Assembly (NCBI GenBank): GCA_018831195.1
Contig: JAHJDP010000084.1
Coordinates: forward strand, 1-64,000
DNA: 64,000 nucleotides
Source: Candidatus Eisenbacteria bacterium
Lineage (GTDB): Bacteria > Eisenbacteria > RBG-16-71-46 > CAIMUX01 > JAHJDP01
Direction: 5' to 3'
Under the pieces are notes generated by a model. The model made no database searches. It had not been told where the DNA came from and saw only the letters and a list, made by a program, of their open reading frames with translations. Shown here in pieces: positions 2,683 to 27,389 of this stretch. How positions within the stretch are numbered: the first letter of the stretch is position 1; every line of letters begins with the position of its first letter. The translations under genes were made by a program, and so were the position numbers.

Positions 2683-2714
2683 GCAAGGCGATTGCATATA
2701 TGTATAACATATGA

Positions 2715-2978
2715 CCTGGCCTAAAGGCATTCTTGGAGAATCCACGAGTCCCCTTGGACAATAATGCTGCAGTGAGAGCGTTGCGCGGAATCGTTCTGGG
2801 AAGAAAGAATCACTACGGGTCGAGATCCCAACGCGGAACGGAGGTCGAGGCTCTATTTTATAGCTGGTTGGAATCGGCGAAACTGTGTGGTGTGGATCCG
2901 AAAGCGTACTTGCGGAAGGCTATCTATGAAGCGATTAAGAATCCCGGCAATGTAATCCTTCCATCGGATCTCGTGTAA
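2715..2978 (+). pseudogene. IS66-family transposase (TnpC), C-terminal fragment
   Basis: The frame opens after a TGA at 2712-2714 and encodes FLENPRVPLDNNAAVRALRG, then GRKNHYGSRSQRGTEVEALF and the tail GVDPKAYLRKAI. This is the highly conserved C-terminal end of IS66 transposases (PLDNNAAERALR is the usual form). Only about 85 residues of an expected 500 or so remain. TnpB and most of TnpC are missing between this fragment and the HTH ORF, so the element is a dead remnant. The possible TTG at 2733 is not a real start. Confidence 0.8.
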
Positions 2979-4044: not shown

Positions 4045-5007
4045 ATGGATCGCCGGCATTTTATAAAGAGTGGCGCAAAGATTGTCGGGGCGGGGCTTAT
4101 CCTGCCCGCATGGCCCGGTCTCGGTCCCGTTTTCGGCTCCCGTTTCAACCCCGTATTTACCCCTGTTTTCGGCGCTGACGCGGCGGATGCGGCACCCGAT
4201 CTGGTTCTCGCCAAGGGGAGTCCGAAAGAGGCTGTCTTCAGGGCGCTGGAGGCCCTGGGCGGGATCCGGCGTTTTGTAAAACCTGATCAGGTCGTCGTTA
4301 TCAAACCCAACGCGAGCTTTGAAACCCCGCCTAATTTGGGCGCAACCACGCATCCCGAGGTTCTTACGGCTGTGATCGAGGCCTGCTTTCAGGCCGAGGC
4401 GCGGCGGGTGCTGGTCGTCGATCATTCCCTCCGGGATCCGGAGCGGTGTTTCAAGCGCACCGGTACGGCCGAGGCGGTCGACGCTTTCCCGAAGGCGAAA
4501 TTGGTTTCACTGGACAAGGAAAGCGGCTATGTGGCGATCGATGTACCGGGTGGGAGGGCGCTGAAGAAAACATCGATCCCCGTTGTCTTGCAGAAGGCGG
4601 ATGTCTTCATCAATCTCCCCTCGGCCAAAGCGCATTCCGCCACAGGCGTCAGTCTTGGACTGAAGAACCTCATGGGGCTTGTGTGGGACCGGCAGACGTT
4701 CCACAACGACATGGATCTGCATCAGGCGATCGCCGATCTCGCAACGGTGTTGAAGCCGCAGCTGACGATTCTGGATGCGATCCGCATTCTACAAACCGGC
4801 GGCCCCTCGGGCCCCGGAACCGTCGATGAGTTCAACGGCGTCGTCGCCGGTATCGATCCGGTGGCCGTCGATGCCTTCGGCGTCGGGCTCTCGACCTGGA
4901 ACGGCCAGACCTTCCTTCCCGATCAAGTCGCCTATATCCGCCATGCGGCGGAACATGGCGTTGGAACATCGGCCTTGGAGACTCTCCGCATCGAGGAACT
5001 GGGTTAG
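4045..5007 (+). CDS. Tat-exported DUF362 protein
   Basis: The 320-residue protein begins MDRRHFIKSG, a twin-arginine signal (RR at 3-4) with a hydrophobic segment to about residue 30, so it is likely exported folded, as Tat substrates with a cofactor are. The rest is one DUF362 domain: VVIKPNASFETPP, ATTHPEVLTAVIEAC, VLVVDHSL, VFINLPSAKAHSATGVSLGL with KNLMG, and IDPVAVDAF near the end. DUF362 proteins are often annotated as Fe-S proteins, but no CxxCxxC cluster motif is present here, so any cofactor is unknown. The gene lies 93 bases after the DUF6599-like gene and 2 bases before the next gene, which suggests one transcript. Two further DUF362 genes occur within 13 kb. Confidence 0.8.
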   Translation: MDRRHFIKSGAKIVGAGLILPAWPGLGPVFGSRFNPVFTPVFGADAADAAPDLVLAKGSPKEAVFRALEALGGIRRFVKPDQVVVIKPNASFETPPNLGATTHPEVLTAVIEACFQAEARRVLVVDHSLRDPERCFKRTGTAEAVDAFPKAKLVSLDKESGYVAIDVPGGRALKKTSIPVVLQKADVFINLPSAKAHSATGVSLGLKNLMGLVWDRQTFHNDMDLHQAIADLATVLKPQLTILDAIRILQTGGPSGPGTVDEFNGVVAGIDPVAVDAFGVGLSTWNGQTFLPDQVAYIRHAAEHGVGTSALETLRIEELG

Positions 5008-9306: not shown

Positions 9307-9345
9307 CAGCCGTTGCTCCTGGCCGTTGCGCCTGGCCGTTGCGCC
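9307..9345 (+). repeat. Three tandem 13-bp repeats
   Basis: GCCGTTGCTCCTG, GCCGTTGCGCCTG and GCCGTTGCGCCTC follow head to tail directly after the barrel gene, and a decayed fourth unit may follow. They are non-coding and lie upstream of the promoter-like sequence at 9355-9385. Confidence 0.75.
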
Positions 9346-9354
9346 TCGCTGTCC

Positions 9355-9385
9355 CGTTGCGGTTCGCGGCGCTAGACGGTATAAT
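9355..9385 (+). promoter_or_regulatory. Sigma70-like promoter for the second DUF362 gene
   Basis: TTGCGG (9355-9360), a 19-base spacer and a perfect TATAAT (9380-9385) lie 88 bases before the start at 9474, in an AT-rich patch. The spacer is long, so the -10 box carries most of the weight. It implies the second DUF362 gene can be transcribed apart from the barrel gene. Confidence 0.45.
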
Positions 9386-9473
9386 TATAAAATATGTTTT
9401 GGGGTCCATAGAGCCTGGCCGGTTCACCATACTGCGTCGCGCCATTGTCTTGCCATCGAGGAGGGGGAGCACC

Positions 9474-10856
9474 ATGGAGAACCCCGCGGGGAAGAGGTCT
9501 GGGGAAAAATCTACCGCACAAAAGAAGGATCATTTCGGCCCAAGTCGCCGTGATTTCTTGAAACTCTCCGCCGTCGGAGCTATCGCCGCGGCGGGATCAA
9601 AAGCTTCCGCCAGGGATCTGGTAGAGCTGGGGAAGAAGGCTGTCGCCGGGACCCGCGGGAATGTCATGCCGGGCCGGATCGTCATCTATCACGACCCTGA
9701 ATTCTATTCCGGAGGTCTCGATCAGGATCAGATCGCCGGGGCTGTTCACAGCGGTGTTCAAATGCTGACAGGAATCAGCGACACCGCCGCCGCTTTTGAA
9801 TCGCTTTTCCCCGGTCTTCACAGCGGCTCGACCTTCGCGATCAAGGTCAACTGCATCGGACCCACGGAGTCGAAATGGCAGGTGGCGCGGGGCGTGGTTT
9901 CCGGTCTGTCGCTGATGCTGGGCGGCACCTTCGATGTGAGCCAGGTCGTCATCTATGATGATAACAATATTGTGAATTACGGGTACAATACCGACCGGTT
10001 TACCTTTAATGGGCACGCCGCCGTTATCAGCAGCAACAATAACAACCCCAGCAGCTATTACGTGTATGGCAGCCACCGGCTTTCACAATATATTCTTGAT
10101 TGCGATTACCTGATCAGCATCCCGGTGCTGAAGAGCCACACCGATCCGAATAATCAGATCACACTGGCCTTGAAGAATCATTACGGCTCCTGCTCGCCGG
10201 CGAGCCTCTGCGGCAATATCCCCGGCATGCTGACCCTCAATGCGGATCAGTATGTGAAGCCGAAGACGGCGCTGGTTGTCGCCGATGTGATTGAGGCGAC
10301 CTACAACGGCGGGCCGGGTGAGCCGCCGCAGATCTGGAACACCTTCCCTGAAATGACGCCGAACACCCTCTTCTTCTCAACCGACCCCACGACGAGCGAC
10401 TATTGGGGCCGTGAGTATATCAATACCGAGCGGGCTTCCCACGGCTGGGCGGCTAAACCCTGTACATGGGTCGAGCTCTCTTCCGGATCCCCCTACGAGA
10501 TCGGTGTCAGCGATCCAGGTTCGATGACGGTGATCAACTATGAACCGTCGGATGTCGACAACCCCGCGGGCGTTGTCGGCGGGACCTTCCTGGCGCCGAA
10601 CGTTCCCAATCCATGCCGGAACGGCACGGAACTGCGCTTTCGCCTGGATGAGCCCTCGCGCGTCTCCCTGCAGATCATCTCCACCTCGGGCCGGATGATC
10701 CGCCGTCTCGGCGGGGATGTGCTGCCTGAAGGGCGTCATGTCGTGAAATGGGACGGCCGCGATAGTCAGGGGCGCCGCGTTCCGGCGGGCGTTTACTTCA
10801 CGCGGATGGAAGCGGGACGCATCGTCCGCACGCGCCGGATCGTTGTCGCGAACTGA
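9474..10856 (+). CDS. Tat-exported DUF362 protein with C-terminal sorting-like domain
   Basis: ATG 9474 is chosen because GAGGAGGGGGAG lies just upstream; the frame extends further upstream but reads as non-coding. The product is 460 residues. SRRDFLK at 24-30 is a textbook twin-arginine motif. Next comes a DUF362 core: FAIKVNCIGPTESKWQVARG, CDYLISIPVLKSHTDPNN, LALKNHYGSC and TALVVADVIEATYNGGPG. The last 85 residues form a separate FlgD/type-IX-like domain: APNVPNPCRNGTELRF, SLQIISTSGRMIRRL, VKWDGRD and PAGVYFTRMEAG. Tat signal plus sorting domain implies export in folded form and then delivery to the cell surface. A strong intrinsic terminator begins 24 bases after the stop. Enzymatic function is unknown. 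Confidence 0.8.
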   Translation: MENPAGKRSGEKSTAQKKDHFGPSRRDFLKLSAVGAIAAAGSKASARDLVELGKKAVAGTRGNVMPGRIVIYHDPEFYSGGLDQDQIAGAVHSGVQMLTGISDTAAAFESLFPGLHSGSTFAIKVNCIGPTESKWQVARGVVSGLSLMLGGTFDVSQVVIYDDNNIVNYGYNTDRFTFNGHAAVISSNNNNPSSYYVYGSHRLSQYILDCDYLISIPVLKSHTDPNNQITLALKNHYGSCSPASLCGNIPGMLTLNADQYVKPKTALVVADVIEATYNGGPGEPPQIWNTFPEMTPNTLFFSTDPTTSDYWGREYINTERASHGWAAKPCTWVELSSGSPYEIGVSDPGSMTVINYEPSDVDNPAGVVGGTFLAPNVPNPCRNGTELRFRLDEPSRVSLQIISTSGRMIRRLGGDVLPEGRHVVKWDGRDSQGRRVPAGVYFTRMEAGRIVRTRRIVVAN

Positions 10857-11835: not shown

Positions 11836-11867
11836 GTTACGGCGTTACTACGTTACTGCTTTACTGC
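11836..11867. repeat. Four 8-bp tandem units between convergent genes
   Basis: GTTACGGC, GTTACTAC, GTTACTGC and TTTACTGC run head to tail. They overlap the stop codon of the minus-strand C25 peptidase gene (11863-11861) in the short gap between convergent genes. Confidence 0.65.
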
Positions 11868-14800
11868 ACAACCACCATCTTCCGCGTCTGCTGGTTCTCG
11901 CCCGAGTTCAGAACGTAGAAGAACACACCACTTGAGACGCTGCGGCCGTGATCGCCGCGGCCGTCCCAGACGGCGCTGTAGTTGCCGGCGCCCTGCGCTT
12001 CGTTCACGAGCGTCCGGACCAGGCGGCCCATCGCATCATAAATCTTCAGGGTCGTCGGAACCGGTTTGCCGGCATCGAGCCGGTAGCGAATCGTGGTGGT
12101 CGGATTCGCCGCGTTCGGTGAGTTCTGCCAGAGACGGAAGCCGATCGCCGCGGCCACCGGTTCGTCAATGCCGGAAGATCCGCTGCTGGCGCCGCACAGC
12201 ATGAAGTCATCAACGGCCGCCTCAACCAGCGAGCCGCTGCCTTCATCCGCCGCGGTGAAGCGGAAAATCACCTGATTGGTCATCTCAATGAAGTTCTCGA
12301 GCTGGAAGGTCATTTTGGTCCACTGATTGGCGCTGCTCTGAGTGTGCTCGAGATAGACCCAGTTGGCGCCGTTGTCATCGGAGACCTCAACATCCCACCA
12401 GTCTTCGCCGCCGCCGTTCCCGAGATTGTTGGTGTACCAGCGCCAGTATTCCAGTGTCGCTGATTCAAGACCGGAAAGATCGGCCACGGTCGAGGTGAGT
12501 ACGGTGGCGCCGCCATCGACATCGTAGGTTCCGGCGGCGCTGCCGGCGAGGGGACCGGTGACCCAGCAGTTGACGCCGGGCGCGGGTGTGTGATCATCCC
12601 CCGGTTGTACGGGAGCGCCATTGTACGTTGTTGGTTGAGGATCGGCGCGTTCCCATACGCCGGATGTCGCTGTACTGCTGACCGTCCAGCCCAGATCGAT
12701 TTCAAAGTCATCAAAGAAGGGGGCGATCGGCATGGGGTAATTGTAGAACATCTGGTGCCCCAGAGAAGCCGTCATGTTGAGTGCGATATCGAGCGAGATC
12801 ATCTCAGGGCAAGCCGGATCGATCGTCAGGCTGAATCCTGATAGATCGGCGTCGCCGCCTTCGGGAACATTGGCGACAGAACCCGAACCATCGGTGATAT
12901 CGATGTAGTCGGAGGCGCAGGAGATCAGGCCGTTGATATTCCGGCAGTCCTCGTGACCCGAGTTGGCCAGGTGGAATGTCAGCCCAACCGTCTCGCCCGG
13001 ATCGGCCATGCCGTCCCCGTTGCCCGCGGTATCGTCGATCGAGACATCGATAACCTCAACGATCGGCGCGTCAATGACGAGGCTGAAGGTTCGATCCCAG
13101 TTGTCCTCGCTTGAGGATATATTGATCACGAAATCAATCTGGGTCTGATCCGGCGTATCCCAGCTGACGACGAAGTTGTAATTGTCATCGCACGGCTTGG
13201 TCTGATCCGGATTGATCGTTCCCCAGGTCTCGTAGTCGTCGCTGATCGTCACACCGCGGACCTCAACGAGGGTGCCCGTGACGTTGGTGGCCGCGTCGCT
13301 GCCCATATTCTTGAGGTAGGTGGTGAGGATCACATTCTCACCGGCATCGACCTCGCCGTCCTGATCGCCGGAATAATCGTTAAAGTCGTTCTGATCGACG
13401 ATCAGATAAGGCCCTTCCATCGTCATTACCGGCAGATCGACCATATAGGGGATCTTGTTTTGGCAGGTGACGACGACATGAACACTCGAATAGGCCGCCA
13501 CACTCGAAATGGGGATATTCGAGGTTCCGTCGGCATCGATCATTCCACCGCCCAGCAGAACGCCATCCGCCGAGAAACCGACATAGCTGTGCGGTTCCGC
13601 GATGACGGTGACATACGTGGCGGCGGGAAGAATGTTCGGCGGAAGGGTTATCGCGTTGGCATCCGGCACCCCGAGATAGACCGAGAGGCTGGGATCACCC
13701 ATCAGGTTGTAAATATCCCAGTAATAACCGGTCAGGCTGCTGCCCGCTTCCTCCACAGCCAGGTTGCCGCAGAAGACATGGGAGTCTTGAACGATATACC
13801 ATTGCGGGATCGCCTCGCCGTGATCGTGGAACATCCCGTCATAAGAACCGAGACCGGTCTGTTCATAGGTCGCGCCGCCGGAAACGATGGGGCCGTAGCC
13901 GACGCCGAACCAGTAATCCTCATCCCAGTAGGTGCTCTCCGACGCGCCGATATAACCGATCGCGCCCTTGTTGGGCGCCCTCAACCAGGCCTCGCCGAAA
14001 CAGGTTGTGACCTGGAAGCTGCTGGTGAGACAGCAGTTCCCCACCGCGTGACAATACTCGTGGTCATTACTCAGGCCATTGATATTGGTAATTGTGAAAG
14101 TTGGGTCGGACCAGGATGTCTGACCGCCGTGAGCGGTGTAGTTTATAAATCCGACGCCATCGCTTACATTCTGGATAATCTGAGCATCCGAGGAACCCGA
14201 CTCGGGGTAAAGATAGGTGTGGCTCAGAATGCCGTGGGCGGCGTTGAAGTAATGATTGGTTCCGTAGTTGATCTGCCCGTTCCCGTAGGTCGCGGCATAG
14301 CCGGTGTCATAGCCGGCGATCATCACGACCTCACCAAGGAAGGAGGGATCGGGGAACTCGTGTCGCTCATACTCCAATGTCTTGTCGATGTAAGGCTGCA
14401 ATTCCGTCGAGTTGTTGGCGGAGAAACGGCCATAGTACATTTCGGGGATGTCATCACCCGTGACATCGCAGTAGGGGAGATCGCTGATGCCGGAGAGGCT
14501 GTAGGCCGGGATCTGCCCGGTATCGCCGACAAAAAGAACGAAGGTCGGGGCGGGATTCTCCGAGGCGTACAAGCCGTGGACATAACTCTGTATGGCGGAT
14601 GTCGTGCCGCCGATGGTGTCGGTGTAGCCGACGATCACCTTGAAACCGCGTTCGGTCTGCCACTGGATGAAGGGCTGCAACTGGGTTTCAAACATCCGGG
14701 CGGCCACGATGACATAGGTCACCGGACCCTGGTACTTGTCGGGGAAGGTGTCATGCGTATCATCCCGCGACCCGGCGATTTGATCATAAACGACCTCAAA

Positions 14801-15475
14801 ATAGGGGCTCTGGGTCCGGTCCTTGAGGGCCCGCTCGGCCTCGAGATCGCCGCCGGTGAAGTGGATCGCCAACTTGACATTTTCTTTGACCGTGACCGTT
14901 CCCATTTGGGGATTGTAGGTCACCGGCGCTACTTCGAGACGCCCGATCCGCACCGATCGCATCTGACCTATATCGACCGCCTGGACGAGGTCGAAGCCGA
15001 ACTCCTCGTTGCGGGCGTAGGTCGCCGGATCGTAATGGAAGGGGAGGCTCGCTGGATCCTGGTTCTTCGCGACGCTCGGCTGGGCCGGCAGCAGGGGATT
15101 CAAAATCCCGTAATCGGCGAGCGCAAATTCGCGGGTTTCAAAATCCAATACTTCAACCCACATCCCGGCGCCATACGGGATCTCGAAAAGCTGATTGAGC
15201 ATCGGCAGCTGCGGCTGGCCGAGCTGCTGTGATGAGTGAAAACCGGGGAGCAGAAGCCGGCTGAAGGTTCCCTCCGCAGTCTCCACATCCATTGTGGCGA
15301 GTTCCCCCACGGAGATTTGGAAAGTGAGCTGGTCGTTGGTTTGTTCCAACAACGTCACCCCCGCCGTCTCTTGAGAGAGCTCTATTTTATGTGTCTCACC
15401 CCACGCCGATCCCGCGAAGGCGAGCAGACAGAGCGCGACACACACTACGACGCTGGCACAGATGGCATTCCGCAT
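11861..15475 (-). CDS. Gingipain-like C25 cysteine peptidase with C-terminal sorting-like domain
   Basis: ATG 15475 is chosen: AAAGGA lies upstream and a clean signal peptide (MRNAICASVV to AGSAWG) follows; the longer open frame upstream is not protein-like. The 1204-residue product has a C25-type propeptide (about 30-245), then the caspase-like catalytic domain with VTYVIVAARMFETQLQPFIQ, FVLFVGDTGQIP, His449 in INYTAHGG and Cys481/482 in AVGNCCLTSSF. These are the expected His-Cys dyad. Two Ig-like regions follow (DQDGEVDAGENVIL, GNGDGMADPGETVGL), then a jelly-roll-like segment (about 980-1110). The final 95 residues are a sorting-like domain (NSPNAANPTTTIRYRL, WDGRGDHGRSVSSGVFFYVL). It is likely a secreted, autoprocessed surface protease. 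It lies 68 bases after the DUF362 gene on the same strand, probably cotranscribed. Confidence 0.88.
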   Translation of the reverse strand: MRNAICASVVVCVALCLLAFAGSAWGETHKIELSQETAGVTLLEQTNDQLTFQISVGELATMDVETAEGTFSRLLLPGFHSSQQLGQPQLPMLNQLFEIPYGAGMWVEVLDFETREFALADYGILNPLLPAQPSVAKNQDPASLPFHYDPATYARNEEFGFDLVQAVDIGQMRSVRIGRLEVAPVTYNPQMGTVTVKENVKLAIHFTGGDLEAERALKDRTQSPYFEVVYDQIAGSRDDTHDTFPDKYQGPVTYVIVAARMFETQLQPFIQWQTERGFKVIVGYTDTIGGTTSAIQSYVHGLYASENPAPTFVLFVGDTGQIPAYSLSGISDLPYCDVTGDDIPEMYYGRFSANNSTELQPYIDKTLEYERHEFPDPSFLGEVVMIAGYDTGYAATYGNGQINYGTNHYFNAAHGILSHTYLYPESGSSDAQIIQNVSDGVGFINYTAHGGQTSWSDPTFTITNINGLSNDHEYCHAVGNCCLTSSFQVTTCFGEAWLRAPNKGAIGYIGASESTYWDEDYWFGVGYGPIVSGGATYEQTGLGSYDGMFHDHGEAIPQWYIVQDSHVFCGNLAVEEAGSSLTGYYWDIYNLMGDPSLSVYLGVPDANAITLPPNILPAATYVTVIAEPHSYVGFSADGVLLGGGMIDADGTSNIPISSVAAYSSVHVVVTCQNKIPYMVDLPVMTMEGPYLIVDQNDFNDYSGDQDGEVDAGENVILTTYLKNMGSDAATNVTGTLVEVRGVTISDDYETWGTINPDQTKPCDDNYNFVVSWDTPDQTQIDFVINISSSEDNWDRTFSLVIDAPIVEVIDVSIDDTAGNGDGMADPGETVGLTFHLANSGHEDCRNINGLISCASDYIDITDGSGSVANVPEGGDADLSGFSLTIDPACPEMISLDIALNMTASLGHQMFYNYPMPIAPFFDDFEIDLGWTVSSTATSGVWERADPQPTTYNGAPVQPGDDHTPAPGVNCWVTGPLAGSAAGTYDVDGGATVLTSTVADLSGLESATLEYWRWYTNNLGNGGGEDWWDVEVSDDNGANWVYLEHTQSSANQWTKMTFQLENFIEMTNQVIFRFTAADEGSGSLVEAAVDDFMLCGASSGSSGIDEPVAAAIGFRLWQNSPNAANPTTTIRYRLDAGKPVPTTLKIYDAMGRLVRTLVNEAQGAGNYSAVWDGRGDHGRSVSSGVFFYVLNSGENQQTRKMVVVQ

Positions 15476-15543
15476 GATTCGTCCTTTCCCATGACTGAGC
15501 GGGTCCCCGCCTGGGTTCCCGCGGTCAGATCCCCTTGAAGGAG

Positions 15544-17034
15544 TTACCGAATGAAAACAACCCTTTGCCGCCGCGTTCCCAACCCGGTACGCAGCTTGCA
15601 AAAATAGATTCCGCTCGGAAGCGCACGACCGCGGTCGTCGCATCCGTCCCAATGGAAGCGGTGCATCCCCGCCGTGAAATGCGCGTCGGCGACACGGCGG
15701 ACGACTGAACCCCGGACATCGACGATGACCAGTTCCGCATGGGATTCCGTCGCGCAATGGAAACGTAATGTACAAGCCCCTCCGGCCGGATTGGGATACG
15801 GCGCGAGCAGGGCTACGGCCTTGGAACCGAGCGAACTCCCCGGCACATCGGCGCCGGGTTCAACATTGAGTTCGATTAAATCGATAAGTTCGGGATCGTC
15901 CGTGCCGAGATAGTACGGATCCCCCGCCGCGGCGGGAAGCATGCTGGGATTCAGCGCGCCCAAGCCGTGCTTGGCCCGCTCCTCGTTGATCTTGATGGTG
16001 CCGATCCGGTCCGTCGCGACAGGATCGATCCCCACGATCACGCTGTTGTAGGCCCAGTTCGGCGGTGTGTGATAGGGCGGGATGTAACCCGGTCCTCCGT
16101 TATAGAGCCCGAAGGTGCCGTCGATGATATAGAGCTTGGTTTTGTCGCCCAAGTCATCCCTGAGGAACCTGGCCAATCCCGGCTCGCCCCGGGTGTGGCC
16201 GTCGCCGTACGTTCCCGATAGATGCATCTGGTATGAGGTGGAGATGCCGTTCACCGTACCGTACAGGTTTTTCAGACTGAATGTGATGCCGGACTCGCTG
16301 TGATCTTTGATCACCGAGGCGTTGATCATATAATCGCAGTGATCGATGATGATCTTTGAGAATTGATGATAGGAGTGCGTGTTCAGGGGATGATCGATGA
16401 CGAAGGTCTGTGAATCATACCCAACGCTCGGATGATCGGTGCCGACATACTGCACGCCGGGGCCGCCCCAATTCGGTGTATAACCGGTCTGCGGGCAGAA
16501 GAAGGGATTGTCAAAGTCCCAGACAATGATCTGCTCTTCGGGCAGCTGCTGGCCGCCCAGATCCATCATGAGGAGCCCGTCGATGATCGCGTTCACCACC
16601 TCGGGATGCGTGGGCACATCGCCGCAGGCGAGGTTGATCTTGATGGCGACTTTATGCGTGTTGTTGATGCCCGGGAAGAGGCTCTTCCAGGCGGCGCCGG
16701 TCTCTTCGTGGCCCGTCAGCGCGCGGATCGCGGCGTGCACCATCAGATCGACCGGTTCCTGATTCACCGTGTCCCATCCGGAGGTCGCGCCGGCGTGAAA
16801 GGCGCGAACGACCCTGGCGCCGCGGGCGGCGGCATGGGCCGCCGGCGACTTGAGGATATAGGGTGCGATGATCATGCCCGCGGCGCCGGCCGCGGTGGTC
16901 TGAAGGAAACGGCGGCGCGTGAGGCCTTTTGATGAGACCTGATCCCGGCCCGCGCGGAGTCTCAATCCGTCATGTTTTGTTCTCGGCTGATCCTGATGAT
17001 CGCCCTGCTGTTCAGATCCTCGCTCGTCGGCCAT
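15544..17034 (-). CDS. Tat-exported DUF362 protein with C-terminal sorting-like domain
   Basis: The 496-residue protein has a long polar N-terminus and then TRRRFLQ (39-45), a twin-arginine motif, with the hydrophobic part to about 68. The DUF362 core includes KVAIKINLACGDVPTHPEVV, HCDYMINASVIKDHSESGIT, FSLKNLYGTVNG, LYIIDGTFGLYNGGPG and VIVGIDPVATDRIGT. The last 85 residues form the sorting-like domain: LLAPYPNPAGGACTLRF, ELVIVDVRGSVVRR, HWDGCDDRGR and PSGIYFCKL. Its layout matches the 9474-10856 product, and both are longer than the sorting-domain-free copy at 4045. The upstream DUF6599-like gene ends 44 bases before this start and the C25 peptidase follows, suggesting a three-gene unit. 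Role unknown. Confidence 0.82.
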   Translation of the reverse strand: MADERGSEQQGDHQDQPRTKHDGLRLRAGRDQVSSKGLTRRRFLQTTAAGAAGMIIAPYILKSPAAHAAARGARVVRAFHAGATSGWDTVNQEPVDLMVHAAIRALTGHEETGAAWKSLFPGINNTHKVAIKINLACGDVPTHPEVVNAIIDGLLMMDLGGQQLPEEQIIVWDFDNPFFCPQTGYTPNWGGPGVQYVGTDHPSVGYDSQTFVIDHPLNTHSYHQFSKIIIDHCDYMINASVIKDHSESGITFSLKNLYGTVNGISTSYQMHLSGTYGDGHTRGEPGLARFLRDDLGDKTKLYIIDGTFGLYNGGPGYIPPYHTPPNWAYNSVIVGIDPVATDRIGTIKINEERAKHGLGALNPSMLPAAAGDPYYLGTDDPELIDLIELNVEPGADVPGSSLGSKAVALLAPYPNPAGGACTLRFHCATESHAELVIVDVRGSVVRRVADAHFTAGMHRFHWDGCDDRGRALPSGIYFCKLRTGLGTRRQRVVFIR

Positions 17035-17854: not shown

Positions 17855-17910
17855 TAAATGGTTAGGCCGTACATCCACTGATGGCAGCAGAATCCCACCT
17901 GGAGGTCTCT

Positions 17911-20739
17911 ATGACACGGCATCGCTTGATGGCCATCCTCCCGATCTTCTCTCTCATCGCGGCGATTGGGCTGGCGCCGGTATGGGGGAATGACTTGAAT
18001 CTCAACGAGTTACGATATCAGACCCCCGCTCCGACCGGCCGCATCATCATTAAATTCGCGGAGGGGTCGGGTTTGGCGGTGGAGAACGGCTTACTGCGAC
18101 CTGACGCGCCCGATGCCCCTCGGGTCGCCGCACTGCTGCGGCGGGCCGCGGCCGCTTTCCGGCTGGAACGTCATTTCTCCAGGGATGCGGCGGCACTCGA
18201 TGCCGAACGCCGGGCGGGGCAGGGCCGGGTGGGCAGTCGGCTGCCTAACCTCAACCGGTATGCGCGGTTAACGCCTTTGATCCCTTCGGATTTCTCATCG
18301 CGCGAAGCGCTTCTGGGGATTCTCAAGGCGCTCTGGGCCGATCCAGCGATAGAAACAGCCTTTCTGGAGCCGAGAGCCGTTCCGGCGGCCCTTGGCTTTG
18401 ATGCCTTCGCCGGGACCTTTGATGCCGGAGCGGCCTTCGCGGGGCGGCTCCAGGAACGGAGCCCCGATTACACCCCTCAGCAAGGGTACCTCGATCCGGC
18501 CCCCGACGGGGTCGATGCCGAGGGGGTCTGGGCCACGGCCGGCGGGCGGGGTCAATCCGTCAAGGTCCTCGATATCGAGGGGGCCTGGCTTTGGGATCAC
18601 GAAGATCTCCCCGCGCCCTTCTTCACGGCGGGGGGCGCGATCGAGGACGAAGGCTGGCGCAACCATGGAACCGCTGTGGCGGGGGAGATCCGTGCGATCG
18701 GCAATCTTTACGGCGTCACCGGGATCAGCCATGAGGTCCAGATCGGCGGCGTCTCGATCGCCGAACTCGGCACCGCCGATGCGATCAACACCGCGGCGGC
18801 CAACCTCGACCCGGGCGACATCTTTCTGATCGAGCTGCATGCCCCCGGTCCCAATGCGACGGGGCAGGGGCAGTTCGGTTATGTCTGCATGGAGTTTTGG
18901 CAGGATGTTTTTGACGCGATCCTTGTCGCCTCCGCCAACGGCCGCATCTGCTGCGAGGCGGCGGGGAACGGGCAGCAGGATTTTGACGACGCGGTTTATA
19001 TGGGGCTCTTCGACCGGAATGTCCGCGACTCGGGCGCCATTATCTGCGGCGCGTCGAACGGCGGCGCCCTCGAACCGGCCGGTTTTACAAATTACGGCGC
19101 GCGCGTCGATCTGCACGGCTGGGGTTACAGTGTTTGTACAACCGGATACGGGAATCTTCAGGGCGGGGATGAGATCGAATGGTATACCGATACCTTCAGC
19201 GGCACCTCCAGCGCCTCTCCGATCGTCACCGGATCGGTGGCGTCGCTGCAGGGAATGGTAAAGGCGGCCTTCGGGATCCCATTAAATGCGCGACTGGCGC
19301 GGGACATTCTCGTGGCGACGGGCACCCCGCAGGAGGGGACGGATCATATCGGGCCCCGGCCGAATCTGACCGCCGCCTGGGCTGAGGCGCAAAATGGTAT
19401 CGGCGCCGTAGCGGGAACCGTCACCGACGCCGCTTCAGGGCTGCCGATCCCCGATGTGACGGTGACGGCGCTTGAAACCGGGGCCTTCGCCGTGACGGGC
19501 GCCGGCGGCGTTTACAGCCTGCCTTTTCAATCGGGTACCTATACATTACTTTTCACCTCGTTCTTCTACGCCTCCGCGACCGAACCGGTCATCATTACCA
19601 CCGGGAATACGTCGATTGTCGATGTGGCATTGACCGCGGCGCCCACGATCGAGATCGGCGGTGTGGTCTATGCCGACGACGCTTACACAGAGCTTGAGAA
19701 TGTCCGCGTCACGCCGATCGGCGTTCCGCTAAGCGGCGCCGTTACCGGCCCCGACGGCCGCTGGTCGATTCCCGGCTTTCCCGAGGGCAACGCCTATATC
19801 TTTATCTTTGACAATCTGCCGGGGTACGGCGTGGATGCCTACTGGGTCGGCGGTCCGAGCCTGGATCCGGGTTTAACAAGGTCGGATGTCGAGTTCGCCG
19901 TGCAGCTCCCGACGGCGGCCGAGGATTTTGAAAGCGGCGGCGGGGGTTTTTACAACGAATCTATCTGGGAGTACGGCACGCCGCTCGCCGGTGGGCCATC
20001 CGCCGGATTCAGCGGCCAGAACTGCTGGGGCGTTGGGATGACCGGCGATTATGGGGATGATATCATCGGCGTTCTGGAAAGCCCGGCTTATGATTTTTCG
20101 GATGAAACGGAACTGCGCCTGTCATTTCATTATTGGTGTGAAACCGAATCGGGATTCGACGGCGCGAACCTCCAGATCCTGGATCTCGGCTCCCTTGAAT
20201 GGACCACGCTGACGCCCTCCGGCGGTTACCCCTCCATCTCCCTGAGCGGTATTGGATATGATCCGGGCTGGTCGGGTTCGACCGGCGGGTGGACCGGCGC
20301 CGTCTTCGACCTCAGCGCTTACATTTCCGACACTGTTAAATTCCGGATTCAGTTCGGTTCCGACGGCGGTGTGAACGGCCTCGGATTCTGGATCGATGAG
20401 ATCGCTTTCGATACCGGGGACCATATTTCCGGCGCGCTGGAGGGGGACCTGTCGGTTGTCGCCGGAATCATCGGCCTGGCGCCGAATCCGTCGCTCGGGG
20501 CGGTTCAGGTCGCCCTCGCCATGCCCTCCACGGGTTCCGCGGATGTGGCGGTCTATGACGCGGGCGGGCGATGCCTGCGCCACTTGTACAACGGCCGGCT
20601 TCCTGTGGGGACGACGCGGCTCAATTGGGACGGCGCCGATCATAACGGCCGCCCTGTTTCCAGCGGCGTCTACTTCATCAGGATGGAAACCGAAGATCAG
20701 AGCTGGGCCCGGCGGGTGGTGCTGGCGCGACGGCGGTAA
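17911..20739 (+). CDS. Secreted subtilase (S8) with regulatory-like, jelly-roll and sorting-like domains
   Basis: ATG 17911 follows GGAGG at 7 bases, so it is preferred to ATG 17881. The 942-residue product has a signal peptide to about residue 26, then a prodomain-like region to about 205. The S8 catalytic set is complete: Asp221 in VKVLDIEGAW, His252 in RNHGTAVAGE, oxyanion Asn353 in AAGNG, and Ser433 in SGTSSASPIVTG. After the protease come carboxypeptidase-regulatory-like repeats (AGTVTDAASGLPIPDVTVTA), a jelly-roll-type region (ESPAYDFSDETELRLSFHYW) and a sorting-like C-terminus (IGLAPNPSLGAVQVAL, NWDGADHNGRPVSSGVYFIR). It should act at the cell surface. It is divergent from the DUF6599 unit, with 241 bases between starts. 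Confidence 0.88.
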   Translation: MTRHRLMAILPIFSLIAAIGLAPVWGNDLNLNELRYQTPAPTGRIIIKFAEGSGLAVENGLLRPDAPDAPRVAALLRRAAAAFRLERHFSRDAAALDAERRAGQGRVGSRLPNLNRYARLTPLIPSDFSSREALLGILKALWADPAIETAFLEPRAVPAALGFDAFAGTFDAGAAFAGRLQERSPDYTPQQGYLDPAPDGVDAEGVWATAGGRGQSVKVLDIEGAWLWDHEDLPAPFFTAGGAIEDEGWRNHGTAVAGEIRAIGNLYGVTGISHEVQIGGVSIAELGTADAINTAAANLDPGDIFLIELHAPGPNATGQGQFGYVCMEFWQDVFDAILVASANGRICCEAAGNGQQDFDDAVYMGLFDRNVRDSGAIICGASNGGALEPAGFTNYGARVDLHGWGYSVCTTGYGNLQGGDEIEWYTDTFSGTSSASPIVTGSVASLQGMVKAAFGIPLNARLARDILVATGTPQEGTDHIGPRPNLTAAWAEAQNGIGAVAGTVTDAASGLPIPDVTVTALETGAFAVTGAGGVYSLPFQSGTYTLLFTSFFYASATEPVIITTGNTSIVDVALTAAPTIEIGGVVYADDAYTELENVRVTPIGVPLSGAVTGPDGRWSIPGFPEGNAYIFIFDNLPGYGVDAYWVGGPSLDPGLTRSDVEFAVQLPTAAEDFESGGGGFYNESIWEYGTPLAGGPSAGFSGQNCWGVGMTGDYGDDIIGVLESPAYDFSDETELRLSFHYWCETESGFDGANLQILDLGSLEWTTLTPSGGYPSISLSGIGYDPGWSGSTGGWTGAVFDLSAYISDTVKFRIQFGSDGGVNGLGFWIDEIAFDTGDHISGALEGDLSVVAGIIGLAPNPSLGAVQVALAMPSTGSADVAVYDAGGRCLRHLYNGRLPVGTTRLNWDGADHNGRPVSSGVYFIRMETEDQSWARRVVLARRR

Positions 20740-20977: not shown

Positions 20978-21496
20978 ATGTGGCGCAGGACTTTAATTTC
21001 TTGTCTATCTCTTTATTTCTTGGTGCATTCTGGTTGCGGCGGCAGAGAAAAACTAACCAGCGACGATGGCTCCGGTGATCCGGCACTCCCCGAATGGGTC
21101 TACGGTGAAAGCCAGGTCTATGATGCGCCGGCCGCGCCCGGCGGGCGGATTTTGGATCCGCTGAGCGGTCAAACCTTCCGGTTCCCGGCGGGCGGAAGCG
21201 GTCTACTCACCGTTTTACAATTAGAGTCGGGGCCCCGGACAGCGTCGGACGAGGGGGCTTTTGAGATTACATACGAGGGATCGGGGTCTCTTGAACTTCT
21301 CATCGATCATGACCCCGAGGATGTCGATTTTCTCGTGGGGTACCTCCCCTTGGACTACGCCGTACAAGAGGGGGAGGAACTCGACACGTCGGGCTGGCTG
21401 CCGCTTGGAAGCACGGCGGGCCAGGGCGACACTCTTGTCTTTGAACTGCCCGTGGGCGCAAAAATGACGGGCTCGATGTCACTCCCCTGGTCTTGA
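20978..21496 (+). CDS. Metallopeptidase lipoprotein copy 1, N-terminal part, ended by in-frame TGA
   Basis: The start ATG 20978 follows GAGGAGGGG. Signal peptide and lipobox-like HSGC (Cys20) match the sister copies, then comes an N-terminal domain of about 150 residues of unknown fold (PEWVYGESQVYDAPA, GQTFRFPAGGSGLL, LPLDYAVQEGEELDTSGWLP). The frame stops at TGA 21494-21496 after MSLPWS. Copies 2 and 3 have GGC or GGG (Gly) at exactly this codon and read straight on, so one GGA-to-TGA change explains the break. This part alone could still be made as a small lipoprotein lacking the peptidase domain. Confidence 0.7.
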   Translation: MWRRTLISCLSLYFLVHSGCGGREKLTSDDGSGDPALPEWVYGESQVYDAPAAPGGRILDPLSGQTFRFPAGGSGLLTVLQLESGPRTASDEGAFEITYEGSGSLELLIDHDPEDVDFLVGYLPLDYAVQEGEELDTSGWLPLGSTAGQGDTLVFELPVGAKMTGSMSLPWS

Positions 21497-23092
21497 GTGA
21501 AAAAGTTTAAGCCGGTTCGCTACAAAAAGGGGACCGCGCAGGCCGACCTTTACGCTCAGATCGAGCAAAATGTCCGGGAGGCCGCGACGACTCTTATCAA
21601 CGCCATTCCCGAATCGCGCCGCTTGCAGGTACAACAGGATATCAACGGCTCGCTCTCGCCGGTTCTTTACGTCCCCCAAAACCGCAGCGCCTATTTGTTT
21701 AAGTCGATGCCGAAGTATGTGCCCTATTGGGATTCTTTCGGCGTTATCTCTCAGTGCGCGATTGTCATACCCGATGACGCCACCGGCAGTGTGGCCCATG
21801 AAGTCGGTCATTACTTTCACCATGTCCTTCTGGGGAACAGCGGCTATCTGAATTTCTTTCGGAATGTCCGTCCCAACGGCCATCATGTGGGGATGGCGGG
21901 GGCGCTGAACGAGCTGATCGAAGAGCCGGCCTATCTCGCGGAGTACTATCTCAAGGGGAGCGTCGGCGGGCTGGGGCCTGAGAAGGGGACCTTTCTCACC
22001 AACGGCGGCGGGGGATCGATCTCGCCGATGACGGTTGATTATCGCGATCTCGAGGGGATGACGATGGTTCTCTTCGCATCGATCCTTCGGGAGGATACCG
22101 AGATTCGCAACTATGCCAATGAGCTTGTGACCGTGCCGGTGGTGGAGGGTTCGCGCGAGCAGTTGTGGCGGGATTGCTATGAGATCGTCGCCTCAGGGAC
22201 ATCCGGCGTTTTGACGGCGCGTGACAAGATCGAGACATTGCTTCAGAACTCCGGCCAGGCCGCCAAACTCCCGGCCATGCTGCAGGCGATCGGCTGGAGT
22301 CATCATGTGGTCTGCCGCTTTGTGGATGGCGATGGGAATCCGTTATCCGGCGTGACGGCTCGCGCCGTGAGCAAGGTCGGAACGTCGGAATACCGCCTGC
22401 CCGCGCGATCACGGGAGAGCGATGACACCGGGACATACGGCCTGAGCGAGTTTTTCCCAGGCGCAAGCATCCTGCGTGTCTATTATGACGGCGATTCAAG
22501 CGATGTTCCAAGGACAATTCCATGGACCACGCCGACGAATCAGCAGGTCGATCTTGGCGATATCGGTGTTGTCAGCAATGAGCTGCTGAACAAATTGCAC
22601 CAAACCACACGAATTGATTTCGGACTGAATGCGCCCCACACCTTTAGTGACGGGCAGAACTGGGACGGGCACTTTGAGATCCTTGTCTGGCCCCTTGTAT
22701 GGACAGGCACCTCCTTTACCGCCCGACATGAAGTGGATGATGTTAGCGGCCATTATTTGATGACGGCGAACGGCAATGTAAGCGCGGATGGTAGGATTCT
22801 CAATGTCGAATATTCCGCCGATTTTTCCCAAGACCAAACCGGGGGGATTCACACTGAAACTCACAGGAGAGTGAATGTGGCCGGGTTGCCTTATACTGAA
22901 GATTACATTGGTGGTGGGAACCGGGTTGTAAAGTATGTGAAAACCGGTGAGGAGGCGGAGCAGTATGTCGTCGCGATGGAGTCGACTTTTACGCAAACCG
23001 ATGCGGGTGGGAGCGTGATAGATTTTTATGAGTATGTTTCGACAAATTGGGCCGCGGCGACAACCGATCTTGATTTAACATTCAGGCAGTAG
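21497..23092 (+). CDS. Metallopeptidase lipoprotein copy 1, peptidase part (likely pseudogene)
   Basis: This is the same frame as the N-terminal part, beginning GTG right after the TGA. It could be translated only by reinitiation, since no ribosome binding site is visible, and would lack an export signal. It keeps an apparently intact peptidase domain: SVAHEVGHYFHHVLLGNSGY with HExxH, ALNELIEEPAYLAEYY as probable third zinc ligand region, then a carboxypeptidase-regulatory-like module (VVCRFVDGDGNPLSGVTARA) and a C-terminal domain. No further stop or frameshift is seen, so the nonsense change looks recent or is tolerated. Confidence 0.65.
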   Translation: MKKFKPVRYKKGTAQADLYAQIEQNVREAATTLINAIPESRRLQVQQDINGSLSPVLYVPQNRSAYLFKSMPKYVPYWDSFGVISQCAIVIPDDATGSVAHEVGHYFHHVLLGNSGYLNFFRNVRPNGHHVGMAGALNELIEEPAYLAEYYLKGSVGGLGPEKGTFLTNGGGGSISPMTVDYRDLEGMTMVLFASILREDTEIRNYANELVTVPVVEGSREQLWRDCYEIVASGTSGVLTARDKIETLLQNSGQAAKLPAMLQAIGWSHHVVCRFVDGDGNPLSGVTARAVSKVGTSEYRLPARSRESDDTGTYGLSEFFPGASILRVYYDGDSSDVPRTIPWTTPTNQQVDLGDIGVVSNELLNKLHQTTRIDFGLNAPHTFSDGQNWDGHFEILVWPLVWTGTSFTARHEVDDVSGHYLMTANGNVSADGRILNVEYSADFSQDQTGGIHTETHRRVNVAGLPYTEDYIGGGNRVVKYVKTGEEAEQYVVAMESTFTQTDAGGSVIDFYEYVSTNWAAATTDLDLTFRQ

Positions 23093-23107
23093 TGGAGGAT
23101 GAGGGTC

Positions 23108-25219
23108 ATGCGGGGAACGGCTGCATTTGCCACGGTCTGTGTTGTTGCCTTTTGTTTTGTTGGCTGCGGTGAGCGAGAAAGATTAACCTCCGACGGCTCC
23201 GGGGATCCGACACTCCCCGAATGGGTCTATGGCGAAAGCCAGGTCTACGATGCGCCGGCCATGCCGGACGGCCGGATTGTGGATCCGCTGACCGGTCAAA
23301 CCTTCCGGTTCCCGGCGGGCGGAAGCGGTCTGCTCACCGTTTTACAATTAGAGTCGGGACCCCACACAGCGTCGGACGAAGGGGCTTTCGAGGTATCCTA
23401 TGAGGGATCGGGGTCTCTTGAGCTTCTCATCGATCATGATCCCGAGGATGTCGATTTTCTCGTGGGATACCTCCCCTTGGACTATGCCGTACAAGAGGGG
23501 GAGGAACTCGACACATCGGGCTGGCTGCCGCTCAGAAGCACGGCCGGTCAGGGTGACACTCTTGTCTTTGAACTGCCCGTGGGCGTAAAAAAGGCGGGTT
23601 CGATGTCACTTCCCTGGTCCGGCGTAAAAAAGTTTAAGCCGGTTCGCTACAAAAAAGGGACAGCGAACGAAGTTCTTTTTGCCCAAATCGAACAGAATGT
23701 TCGGGACGCGATGAACTCTCTGATCAATGCCCTGCCGGCCGCCCGTCGCGCCGCGGTTATGGCCGCTGTGAACGGCGCATTCGAACCCGTTCTGTATGTC
23801 CCCGCAAATCGCAGCGCCTACCTGTTCACATCAAAGCCGAAGTATGTGCCCTATTGGGATTCTTTCGGCCTCGTAGCGCAATGCGCTATTGTTATACCGG
23901 ATGACGCCACCACGAGCGTGGCGCACGAAGTCGGCCACTATCTCCATCATGTTCTTCTGGGAAACAGCGGCTATCTGATTTTCTTCCAACATGCCCGCCC
24001 CAGCGGACACCATGTGGGGATGCCTGGGGCGCTGAACGAGCTGATCGAAGAACCGGCCTACTTTTCTGAGTATTATTTAAAGGGCACCGTCAGCGGCGCA
24101 GGTCCGGAGAAAGGGACTTTTCTCACCAACGGCGGTGGTTCGATCTCGCCGATCAGCGTTGATTATCGAGATCTCGAGGGGATGACGGTGGCGATGCTCG
24201 CTTCCGTGATTCGCGATCGCGACGAGATCCGGGATTATGCCAATAGGGTGGTTAAAGTGCCGGTGGTGCAGGGTTCGCGCGAGCAGTTGTGGCAGGATTG
24301 CTATGAGATCATCGCCTCAGGGACATCCGGCGTTTTGGCGGCGCGTGACAAGATCGAGACCTTGCTTCAGAACTCCGGCCAAGCCGATAAACTTCCGGCC
24401 ATGCTGCAGGCGATCGGCTGGAATCATCATGTCGTCTGTCGATTCGTAGACGGGAATGGAAATCCATTGTCGGGCGTGACGGCTCGCGCCATCAGCAAAG
24501 TGGGTAGCATGGAATACCGTTTGCCCGCGCGATCACGTGAGAGTGATGGCACTGGGACGTACGGCTTGAGTGAGTTTTTCCCCGGCGCAAACACGCTGCG
24601 TATCTATTACGATGGCGATTCCACCGATGTCCCCAAGATAATTCCATGGACCACGCCAACCAATCAGCAGGTTGATTTTGGAGATATCAGTGTCGTGAGT
24701 GATGAGCTTCTTCGAAAGCTGCATCGCTGCCAGCACATCACCTTCCGTATCCAGGCGCGCCATCTATTCAGCGACGGTGAGCAGCGGGATCGCCATTTTG
24801 AGCACCACCTCTATCCATTGACCTGGAATGGTTCTAACTTCTCAGTACGGGATACGATCGATTCGTATGGATTCCACGGCGTCATGATCTCAGACGGCAA
24901 TGTTGAAATGAACGGTATGATTTTGAACGCCGAATATACTTATGACTGGACAAATGACCAATCCGGAAATACACATACCGAAAGCCATATAAGAGTTGTG
25001 GTGACCGGATTGCCCTATACAAGTGACTACCTAAACCTCGGGCACCAGCATGTACGTTATACAAAAGAGGCGGCTGAGGCCGTTCCCTACATCACCCTCA
25101 TGGAGGCGACCTATACCCAGAGCGTAGATGGAACGGTCACCCAATCGTGGTCCTATATCTCGACCAATTGGTCGCACCCCGATGCGACGTCAACCCTGGA
25201 TATGGAGTTCCATGAGTAG
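23108..25219 (+). CDS. Metallopeptidase lipoprotein, copy 2 (intact)
   Basis: ATG 23108 is preferred over ATG 23099, because GGAGG ends directly at 23098 and leaves room only for the later start. The product is 703 residues. Signal peptide with FVGC lipobox (Cys20) predicts a lipoprotein. The N-terminal domain spans about 30-170, then KKFKPVRYKKGT introduces the peptidase domain. Zinc motif HEVGH is at 273-277, and ALNELIEEPAYFSEYY (Glu311/314/315) supplies a plausible third ligand, a gluzincin-like arrangement. A regulatory-like beta module (VVCRFVDGNGNPLSGVTARA) and a C-terminal beta-rich domain follow. Fold and zinc binding are inferred from motifs; I do not recognise a named peptidase family. 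It probably cleaves or binds proteins at the membrane surface. Confidence 0.75.
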   Translation: MRGTAAFATVCVVAFCFVGCGERERLTSDGSGDPTLPEWVYGESQVYDAPAMPDGRIVDPLTGQTFRFPAGGSGLLTVLQLESGPHTASDEGAFEVSYEGSGSLELLIDHDPEDVDFLVGYLPLDYAVQEGEELDTSGWLPLRSTAGQGDTLVFELPVGVKKAGSMSLPWSGVKKFKPVRYKKGTANEVLFAQIEQNVRDAMNSLINALPAARRAAVMAAVNGAFEPVLYVPANRSAYLFTSKPKYVPYWDSFGLVAQCAIVIPDDATTSVAHEVGHYLHHVLLGNSGYLIFFQHARPSGHHVGMPGALNELIEEPAYFSEYYLKGTVSGAGPEKGTFLTNGGGSISPISVDYRDLEGMTVAMLASVIRDRDEIRDYANRVVKVPVVQGSREQLWQDCYEIIASGTSGVLAARDKIETLLQNSGQADKLPAMLQAIGWNHHVVCRFVDGNGNPLSGVTARAISKVGSMEYRLPARSRESDGTGTYGLSEFFPGANTLRIYYDGDSTDVPKIIPWTTPTNQQVDFGDISVVSDELLRKLHRCQHITFRIQARHLFSDGEQRDRHFEHHLYPLTWNGSNFSVRDTIDSYGFHGVMISDGNVEMNGMILNAEYTYDWTNDQSGNTHTESHIRVVVTGLPYTSDYLNLGHQHVRYTKEAAEAVPYITLMEATYTQSVDGTVTQSWSYISTNWSHPDATSTLDMEFHE

Positions 25220-25271
25220 GCGGGCGGGCATCAGCGCGTTTCAAGTGTCATCCGTCCAAGGAGGTATCATT

Positions 25272-27389
25272 TTGAGGCGTCTCGCGACGTTTATAATTGT
25301 CTGGGTCGCTCTCTGCGCGCTCTCGGGTTGTGGTGAGCGCGAAAGACTAACCTCTGATGGCTCAGGGGATCCGGCGCTTCCGGAATGGGTCTACGGCGAA
25401 AGCCAGGTGTATGATGCGCCGGCCGCGCCCGGCGGGCGGATTGTGGATCCGCTGACCGGCCGCACCTTCAGATTCCCGGCGGGCGGAAGCGGCCTCCTCA
25501 CGATTCTGCAATTGGAATCGGGCCCTCAGACCGAGTCGGACGAAGGAGCTTTTGAGATCATCTACGAAGGATCGGGGTCTCTTGAAATCCTCATCGACCA
25601 TGATCCCGAGGATGTCGATTTTCTCGTCGGATACCTCCCCTTGGACTACGCCGTACAAGAGGGGGAGGAACTCGATACGTCGGGCTGGCTGCCGCTGAAA
25701 AGCACGGCGGGCCAGGGCGATACTCTTGTCTTTGAACTCCCCGTGGGCGCAAAAAAAGCGGGCGCAATGTCGCTGCCCTGGTCCGGGGTAAAAAAGTTTA
25801 AGCCGGTGCGATACAAAAAAGGCACCGCAAACGAAGTCCTTTTTGCCCAAATCGAGCAAAATGTCCGGGAGGCCATGAACACCTTGATCAACGCCGTGCC
25901 GGCCTCGCGGCGCGCGCAGGTTCAGCAGGATGTTAACGGCCCCCTCTCACCGGTCCTCTATGTGCCCCAAAACCGGAGCGCGTACGTGTTCAAATCAACG
26001 CCGAAATATGTTCCCTACTGGGATTCCTTCGGCCTTGTATCGCAATGCGCCATTGTTATACCCGATGACGCGACCGGCAGCGTGGCCCATGAAGTGGGCC
26101 ACTACCTTCATCATGTGCTCCTGGGGAACAGCGGCTATCTCGGCTTCTTCCGGAATGTGCGCCCCAACGAACATCATGTGGGGATGGCGGGGGCGTTGAA
26201 CCAGCTCATCGAGGAGCCGGCCTACCTTGCTGAGTACTATCTCAAGGGGATCGTCGGCGGCCTGGGGCCGGAGAAGGGAACCTTTCTCACCAACGGCGGC
26301 GGGGGGTCGATCTCGCCGATCAGCGTTGATTATCGAGATCTCGAGGGGATGACGATGGTGCTTTTCGCGGCGATCCTTCGCGAGGATACCGAGATTCGCA
26401 ACTATGCCAATGAACTTGTGACCGTGCCGGTGGTGCAGGGTTCGCGCGAGCAGCTGTGGCAGGATTGCTATGAGATCGTCGCCTTAGGGACATCCGGCGT
26501 TTTAGCGGCGCGTGACAAGATCGAGACCTTGCTTCAGAACTCCGGCCAAGCCGATAAAATTCCGGCTATGCTGCAGGCGATCGGCTGGAATCATCATATC
26601 GTTTGCCGTTTCGTCGACGGCAACGGCGACCCCCTCGAGGGCGTGACGGCTCGCGCCATCAGCAAAGTCGGGGCGACGGAATACCGCCTTCCCACGCGGA
26701 CGCGGGAGAGTGATGGCACTGGGACGTACGGCTTGAGTGAGTTTTTCCCCGGCGCGAACACGCTGCGTATCTATTACGATGGCGACTCCACCGATGTCCC
26801 CAAGACAATTCCCTGGACCACGCCGACGAATCAGCAAGTCGATTTCGGTGATGTCTCCGTCGCCAATGACGAGCTTCTCCGGAAACTGCATCGATGTGAT
26901 CACCTTGCCTTCAACATGCGGGCGCCGCATGTTTGGAACGACGGTGAAAGCCGGGACCGGCATTTCGAGCACAATCTTTGGCCGATCGTGTGGGATGGTT
27001 ATACATTCTCGGTTCGGGATTCACTGCATGGCACCAATAATCACTGGTGGTTGACCGTCGATGGCGATGTCGGGACGGATGGGCGGGTCCTGACCGTGGA
27101 ATATACATATTATTACAAGGTGGATTTCAACGGCGGGATTCACGATGAAAGCACTATGCACGTGCGGATCAGCGCTCTGCCCTATACTCAGGATTACATT
27201 CACATGGGATTCCAGCATGTGCAATACTTGACATCCGGCGGTGAGGCGGCTCCCTATGTCACGGCGATCGACGCCGAATATGTAAGAACCAACGCGGAGG
27301 GAGATGTTGTCGATCAGTTTGAGTATATCTCGACCGATTGGACACAAGCCGGCGCAATCGCTGATCTCGATCTGACATTCGGTGAGTAA
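25272..27389 (+). CDS. Metallopeptidase lipoprotein, copy 3 (intact, TTG start)
   Basis: A TTG at 25272 is chosen: AAGGAGG lies 7 bases upstream and the codons that follow give a proper lipoprotein signal (ATFIIVWVALCALSGC). The longer frame upstream overlaps copy 2 and is not signal-like. The 705-residue protein repeats the domain order of copy 2, with SVAHEVGHYLHHVLLGNSGY, ALNQLIEEPAYLAEYYLKG and VVCRFV-like IVCRFVDGNGDPLEGVTARA. In this copy Gln replaces Glu in NQLIEE, so Glu of IEE is the better zinc-ligand candidate for the family. The C-terminal domain is the most diverged part, which may set specificity. Confidence 0.75.
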   Translation: MRRLATFIIVWVALCALSGCGERERLTSDGSGDPALPEWVYGESQVYDAPAAPGGRIVDPLTGRTFRFPAGGSGLLTILQLESGPQTESDEGAFEIIYEGSGSLEILIDHDPEDVDFLVGYLPLDYAVQEGEELDTSGWLPLKSTAGQGDTLVFELPVGAKKAGAMSLPWSGVKKFKPVRYKKGTANEVLFAQIEQNVREAMNTLINAVPASRRAQVQQDVNGPLSPVLYVPQNRSAYVFKSTPKYVPYWDSFGLVSQCAIVIPDDATGSVAHEVGHYLHHVLLGNSGYLGFFRNVRPNEHHVGMAGALNQLIEEPAYLAEYYLKGIVGGLGPEKGTFLTNGGGGSISPISVDYRDLEGMTMVLFAAILREDTEIRNYANELVTVPVVQGSREQLWQDCYEIVALGTSGVLAARDKIETLLQNSGQADKIPAMLQAIGWNHHIVCRFVDGNGDPLEGVTARAISKVGATEYRLPTRTRESDGTGTYGLSEFFPGANTLRIYYDGDSTDVPKTIPWTTPTNQQVDFGDVSVANDELLRKLHRCDHLAFNMRAPHVWNDGESRDRHFEHNLWPIVWDGYTFSVRDSLHGTNNHWWLTVDGDVGTDGRVLTVEYTYYYKVDFNGGIHDESTMHVRISALPYTQDYIHMGFQHVQYLTSGGEAAPYVTAIDAEYVRTNAEGDVVDQFEYISTDWTQAGAIADLDLTFGE

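Follow-up and report, generated by a model that had tools for sequence, protein, structure and literature searches.

A narrowly distributed family of putative zinc peptidase lipoproteins with an HExxH motif, found as a tandem triplet in a Candidatus Eisenbacteria genome

Our analysis revealed three homologous lipoprotein genes in tandem on the plus strand of a 64,000-nucleotide stretch of Candidatus Eisenbacteria DNA (the window; triplet at positions 20978-27389), which belong to a narrowly distributed and so far uncatalogued family of HExxH proteins. Sequence comparisons and structure models indicate that this family is real, and they make a strong, if unproven, case for zinc peptidases. Specifically, we estimate a probability of about 0.68 that the family represents an uncatalogued, exported, lipid-anchored, gluzincin-like zinc peptidase. 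The broader picture, towards which we lean slightly, is that of a new zincin peptidase family with its own signature, known so far from one Candidatus Eisenbacteria order, built as a fixed four-part lipoprotein and subject to tandem amplification in one lineage and pseudoenzyme decay elsewhere.

The window is part of contig C84 of a 5.24 Mb assembly that is 99% complete. The original prediction, made from the DNA alone, had described three tandem lipoproteins of about 700 residues. We did find three tandem homologous copies, their proteins being 73-76% identical, and their sequences identify the triplet as the product of tandem duplication in this lineage. Only copies 2 and 3 are intact, as copy 1 is split by an in-frame TGA. 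The genes are separated by gaps of 6 and approximately 52 bases, and a plausible Shine-Dalgarno sequence precedes each of the three. Copy 2 (23099-25219) encodes a protein of up to 706 amino acids, with a plausible alternative start at ATG 23108 where the Shine-Dalgarno spacing is better. Copy 3 (25272-27389; 705 amino acids) most likely starts at TTG 25272, because AAGGAGG precedes this codon, rather than at ATG 25128 of the longest open reading frame, the initial 48 codons of which overlap with copy 2 at its end or lie directly against it.

Copy 1 (20978-23092, with GAGGAGG upstream) is interrupted at codon 173 (21494-21496), a position occupied by glycine in copies 2 and 3 (GGC and GGG, respectively). 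Recoding of TGA was rejected, since it is an ordinary stop that terminates ten of 25 window genes checked, and no Shine-Dalgarno sequence was found before the copy-1 reading frame that follows the stop. Given an ordinary stop codon and no ribosome-binding site behind it, copy 1 probably does not provide a third working enzyme and is instead a pseudogene or the result of a sequencing error. We give very little credence to copy 1 as a functional split gene, in which the N-terminal domain would form a separate lipoprotein and the core would be translated from a GTG after the TGA, or in which the stop would be read through. Such a split would agree with the position of the TGA, which on the model of copy 2 falls in a low-confidence linker at the boundary between the N-terminal domain and the peptidase-like core, with the GTG immediately 3' of it, and pairwise comparison places the post-stop part still under purifying selection. 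However, the GTG lacks a Shine-Dalgarno sequence, the downstream product would have no signal peptide, and a single base change from GGA (Gly) to TGA, as a recent mutation or assembly error, is the simpler explanation.

All family members whose N-terminus was covered begin with a hydrophobic segment and a lipobox-like cysteine, in line with the signal peptides and lipoprotein character noticed originally. The lipobox reads LSGC in copy 3, FVGC in copy 2 and HSGC, which is atypical, in copy 1. The family proteins are thus predicted to be secreted lipoproteins, tethered to the outer membrane via the N-terminal lipidated cysteine. In copy 2 the export signal is followed by an N-terminal beta domain (amino acids 36-168; 23204-23602), the HExxH core domain delimited by alignment and a core model with pTM 0.83 (amino acids 174-446; 23618-24436), a CarboxypepD_reg-like module (amino acids 450-526; 24446-24676) and a C-terminal beta-rich domain, which is the most diverged part (amino acids 546-706; 24734-25216). 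The N-terminal domain was not found outside these proteins in 59 genomes, and the order of the four parts therefore appears fixed across the family. A by-eye idea that this domain might be ZU5-like was rejected (hhalign against the ZU5 domains of relatives, 0.3%). What had been described as a regulatory-like module proved to resemble CarboxypepD_reg (PF13620), lying C-terminal to the core; the match stays below the curated cut-off in the window copies and exceeds it in the paralogue on contig C46 (37.8 bits). This module is a generic add-on with 31 matches in this genome and is therefore of no use for classifying the enzyme. The full-length model of copy 2 (mean pLDDT 79.6, pTM 0.64), built like the core model on an alignment of only 11 sequences, shows three beta-rich domains flanking the core.

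The HEVGH motif and the downstream Glu-rich LIEE segment of the original prediction were recovered in all three copies, with the LIEE glutamate 37 residues downstream. The motif is located at 21797-21811 in copy 1, which is 3' of the stop, at 23924-23938 in copy 2 (residues 276-280, in helix 271-297) and at 26088-26102 in copy 3. HExxH is intact in eight of 11 homologues. Approximately 0.05 occurrences per protein are expected by chance from composition, and so, judged by this conservation and by the nearly constant spacing to the glutamate, the motif is not a chance occurrence. The consensus among homologues with an intact site is [VI]AHEV[GS]HYxxH, followed by HxxG and then by [LIM][IL]E[ED]xA; the signature of copy 2 is HExGHYxxH-x(19)-HxxG-x(9)-ExxA. 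The distance from the second histidine to the glutamate was 37 residues in all measured members with the exception of L008 (35).

With regard to the third zinc ligand, it had been suggested that the glutamine in NQLIEE of copy 3 would pick out the true one. This glutamine (QLIE, 26202-26213) occupies the position of Glu314 in copy 2 and therefore excludes Glu314, with the proposed ligand three residues further on; the choice of Glu317 then depends on the family alignment. Glu318 is replaced by Asp in several relatives, and Glu317 is kept in ten of 11 homologues, the exception being L012, in which both motif histidines are gone as well. On these grounds Glu317 (24047-24049) is the strongest candidate for this ligand. 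It corresponds to residue 144 of the core-only model (pLDDT 81.4, pTM 0.83), at the start of or just before the next helix (145-155), while HEVGH lies at 103-107 inside helix 102-124, and the blocks around both sites reach pLDDT values of 85-89. Furthermore, all eight homologues that retain HExxH also have His304 of the HxxG motif (24008-24010 in copy 2), which is missing in two of the three degenerate members, and we infer from this conservation that it is probably at the active site.

Searches in the same genome placed the family at seven sites, namely the triplet, further loci on contigs C119 (44% identity) and C46 (26%), and contig-end fragments on C66 (33%) and C99 (39%). In a set of 47 genomes from the phylum we identified three further carriers, which all belong to the same order, so that the family was found in only four genomes of one Candidatus Eisenbacteria order in the searches made. 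A sweep of 385 genomes, mostly from outside the phylum, remained at noise level; of the weak matches outside the phylum, two were judged to be noise and the third an M48-type protein. In a set of 84,980 genomes, a single-sequence scan returned no relative and an alignment scan recovered two Eisenbacteria loci only, among the matches listed; a scan of viral contigs found none. Flanking genes differ among the loci on C84, C119, C46 and contig C131 of genome G007, and no functional link emerged from them. Our literature search returned no report on Eisenbacteria peptidases of this kind.

Three full-length homologues, L009 (genome G010), L011 (G007) and L012 (G009), carry HQIGH, HQLGH and RQLGY, respectively, in place of HExxH. 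They form a single clade (support 100/99), and the catalytic glutamate was therefore, most simply, lost once. As these members retain the whole domain architecture, catalysis does not seem to be essential to every member, and all three are candidates for natural pseudoenzymes. Such a subclade, together with a core flanked by three beta-rich domains, might also be expected if these lipoproteins served for binding or structure at the cell surface and only used a zincin scaffold. The beta domains would then do the binding, the site would be zinc-binding or a vestigial relic, and the degenerate subclade would represent the general trend. We regard this as unlikely, since the clades with the window copies keep HExxH, His304 and Glu317 under strong purifying selection at the site, and since His304 and the catalytic glutamate were lost jointly in two members, as would be expected if His304 had a purely catalytic role.

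The divergence of signal peptides (35-47% identity between copies) and C-terminal domains (43-45%), set against 70-94% in the rest of the mature protein, confirmed a further observation of the original prediction, which had proposed duplication for new specificities. Adaptive divergence of the copies toward new substrates would fit the contrast in identity, but it is doubtful on the silent sites. Silent divergence, assessed at fourfold sites as well, is strongly uneven between gene regions (chi-square p 1.7e-6 to 1e-4) and is highest in the signal peptide and the C-terminal domain, the latter having the highest values of the mature protein. Approximate dS values are 0.2-0.3 for residues 350-446, 0.3-0.6 for the N-terminal domain, 0.7-1.0 for the CarboxypepD_reg-like module and, close to saturation, 1.4-2.0 for the C-terminal domain. 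dN/dS was below 1 in every computable region, including the C-terminal domain (0.24-0.39) and the HExxH core (approximately 0.07-0.13). Moreover, the C-terminal domain is the fastest part throughout the family (mean column identity 28%), and copy 1 is disrupted. Because silent divergence varies along the gene as well, with dN/dS values under 1, the difference between the conserved core and the divergent ends reflects, at least in part, unequal age or homogenisation and not adaptation alone. The N-terminal domain and residues 350-446 look partly homogenised between copies. The uneven silent divergence suggests such partial homogenisation by gene conversion, for which a run test on silent sites was weak (not significant in two pairs, p 0.03 in the third).

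The family had been described as unrecognised, and this description survived comparison with Pfam, NCBIfam, PDB profiles, profile-profile alignment against Peptidase_MA_2 and Foldseek. Neither the single window sequences nor any homologue matched a peptidase family over the cut-off in Pfam and NCBIfam, and no peptidase match was obtained against PDB chains with either sequence or family profile. Membership in Peptidase_MA_2 (PF13485) was rejected, as hhalign with same-phylum profiles gave a probability of 0.9% and aligned only the HExxH segment. Foldseek searches of the core against PDB and viral models gave no significant fold match, and searches with the whole protein were dominated by the beta domains. 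The best E-value of the core against PDB was an insignificant 0.74, with nine of the ten top matches being HExxH proteins, an enrichment that a random helical fold would hardly yield. Judging from entry titles, these HExxH proteins include aureolysin (TM 0.43-0.45), oligoendopeptidase F, BepA and an M32 carboxypeptidase. The call of a metallopeptidase is a well-supported prediction, with the conserved HExxH/Glu arrangement and the zincin-enriched fold search in its favour.

The four highest-ranking fold matches are to the HExxH oxygenase ChlB, and HExxH alone is therefore no proof of a peptidase. A non-hydrolase metalloenzyme, e.g. an iron/alpha-ketoglutarate oxygenase like ChlB or the HExxH domain of PflC, is nevertheless highly improbable for this family. 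The ChlB alignments reach only TM 0.28-0.29 with an rmsd of 11-12 A, compared to TM 0.43-0.45 for aureolysin, no NCBIfam match was obtained, and the neighbours scanned included neither a radical SAM gene nor one for peptide biosynthesis. Furthermore, alpha-ketoglutarate would not be expected where these exported proteins are predicted to reside.

If the family acts as a lipid-anchored zinc peptidase, the N-terminal lipidated cysteine would anchor the protein in the outer membrane, His276, His280 and Glu317 of the next helix would hold the zinc, and Glu277 would activate a water molecule for hydrolysis, with His304 probably lining the active site. The N-terminal beta, CarboxypepD_reg-like and C-terminal beta domains might hold and position enzyme or substrate at the cell surface, and the fast-evolving C-terminal domain would be the likeliest partner-specific part. 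Activity would be expected of copies 2 and 3, copy 1 being disrupted. The neighbourhood also encodes a C25 peptidase and an S8 subtilase, both predicted to be secreted, which gives circumstantial support to a role in extracellular polymer breakdown. If active, the family would add an uncatalogued zinc-peptidase family to the databases and offer a specific protein to study in a phylum on which we found no relevant functional literature. The occurrence of active-looking and degenerate members with the same architecture makes the ligand and catalytic assignments directly testable. No principle would be overturned, as unassigned HExxH proteins are common in candidate phyla.

Elsewhere in the window, the C25 peptidase (11861-15775, minus strand) is gingipain-like, with a propeptide and a C-terminal sorting domain of the FlgD-Ig/CHU_C type, and the S8 subtilase near it (17881-20739) carries CarboxypepD_reg, InhA-like MAM and FlgD-Ig domains. 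Three DUF362 genes (4045-5007, 9339-10856 and 15544-17034) lie near the peptidases; two are confirmed by Pfam and have FlgD-Ig tails, while the gene at 4045 resembles them by eye. An open reading frame of 1428 residues (5010-9296, plus strand) had no Pfam match at E 1e-5. The region at 1373-2064 (minus strand) encodes a small secreted protein and, after it in a different frame, a stretch that looks Hint-like by eye (intein/hedgehog-type; 'NGSTKPVEEIQVDDRV...NHPVLSGGKWV...VHNKE'). Short open reading frames at 88-654 and 2392-2978 (plus strand) resemble transposase remnants by eye, the latter IS66-like, and are located where the DNA is AT-richer (48% G+C) and long open reading frames are few.

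Among known systems, the putative peptidase family resembles the gluzincins of clan MA(E), such as thermolysin and aureolysin (M4) and Peptidase_MA_2: in the core model HExxH lies on one helix, the candidate ligand glutamate at the next, and a short strand precedes the HExxH helix, and aureolysin has a weak fold likeness to the core (TM 0.43-0.45). In M4 peptidases the glutamate ligand follows approximately 20 residues after the second histidine, while in this family it is found at +37, with HYxxH and HxxG as extras and with other accessory domains. Metzincins of clan MA(M), characterized by HExxHxxGxxH/D, were rejected, since HEVGHYLHHVL has neither Gly nor His/Asp where required. Peptidase M48 (Ste24/HtpX/BepA) came up twice: the M48-type protein L039, the sole readable profile match outside the phylum, aligned around VLAHEIGHY at chance level (E 0.005), and BepA appeared in the list of weak fold matches. 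However, no family member has a Pfam M48 match, the resemblance spans only about 43 positions, and the third ligand of M48 comes from a distant ExxxD helix, whereas here Glu317 lies nearby in the LIEExA motif. The ChlB/PflC HExxH alpha-ketoglutarate oxygenases (IPR026337) share the HExxH core and head the weak fold list, and an oxygenase of this type had once been annotated as a metallopeptidase (PMC12636437). Those proteins are peptide-biosynthesis enzymes (PMC12636437), whereas the family described here is predicted to consist of exported lipoproteins whose core aligns to them at TM 0.29.
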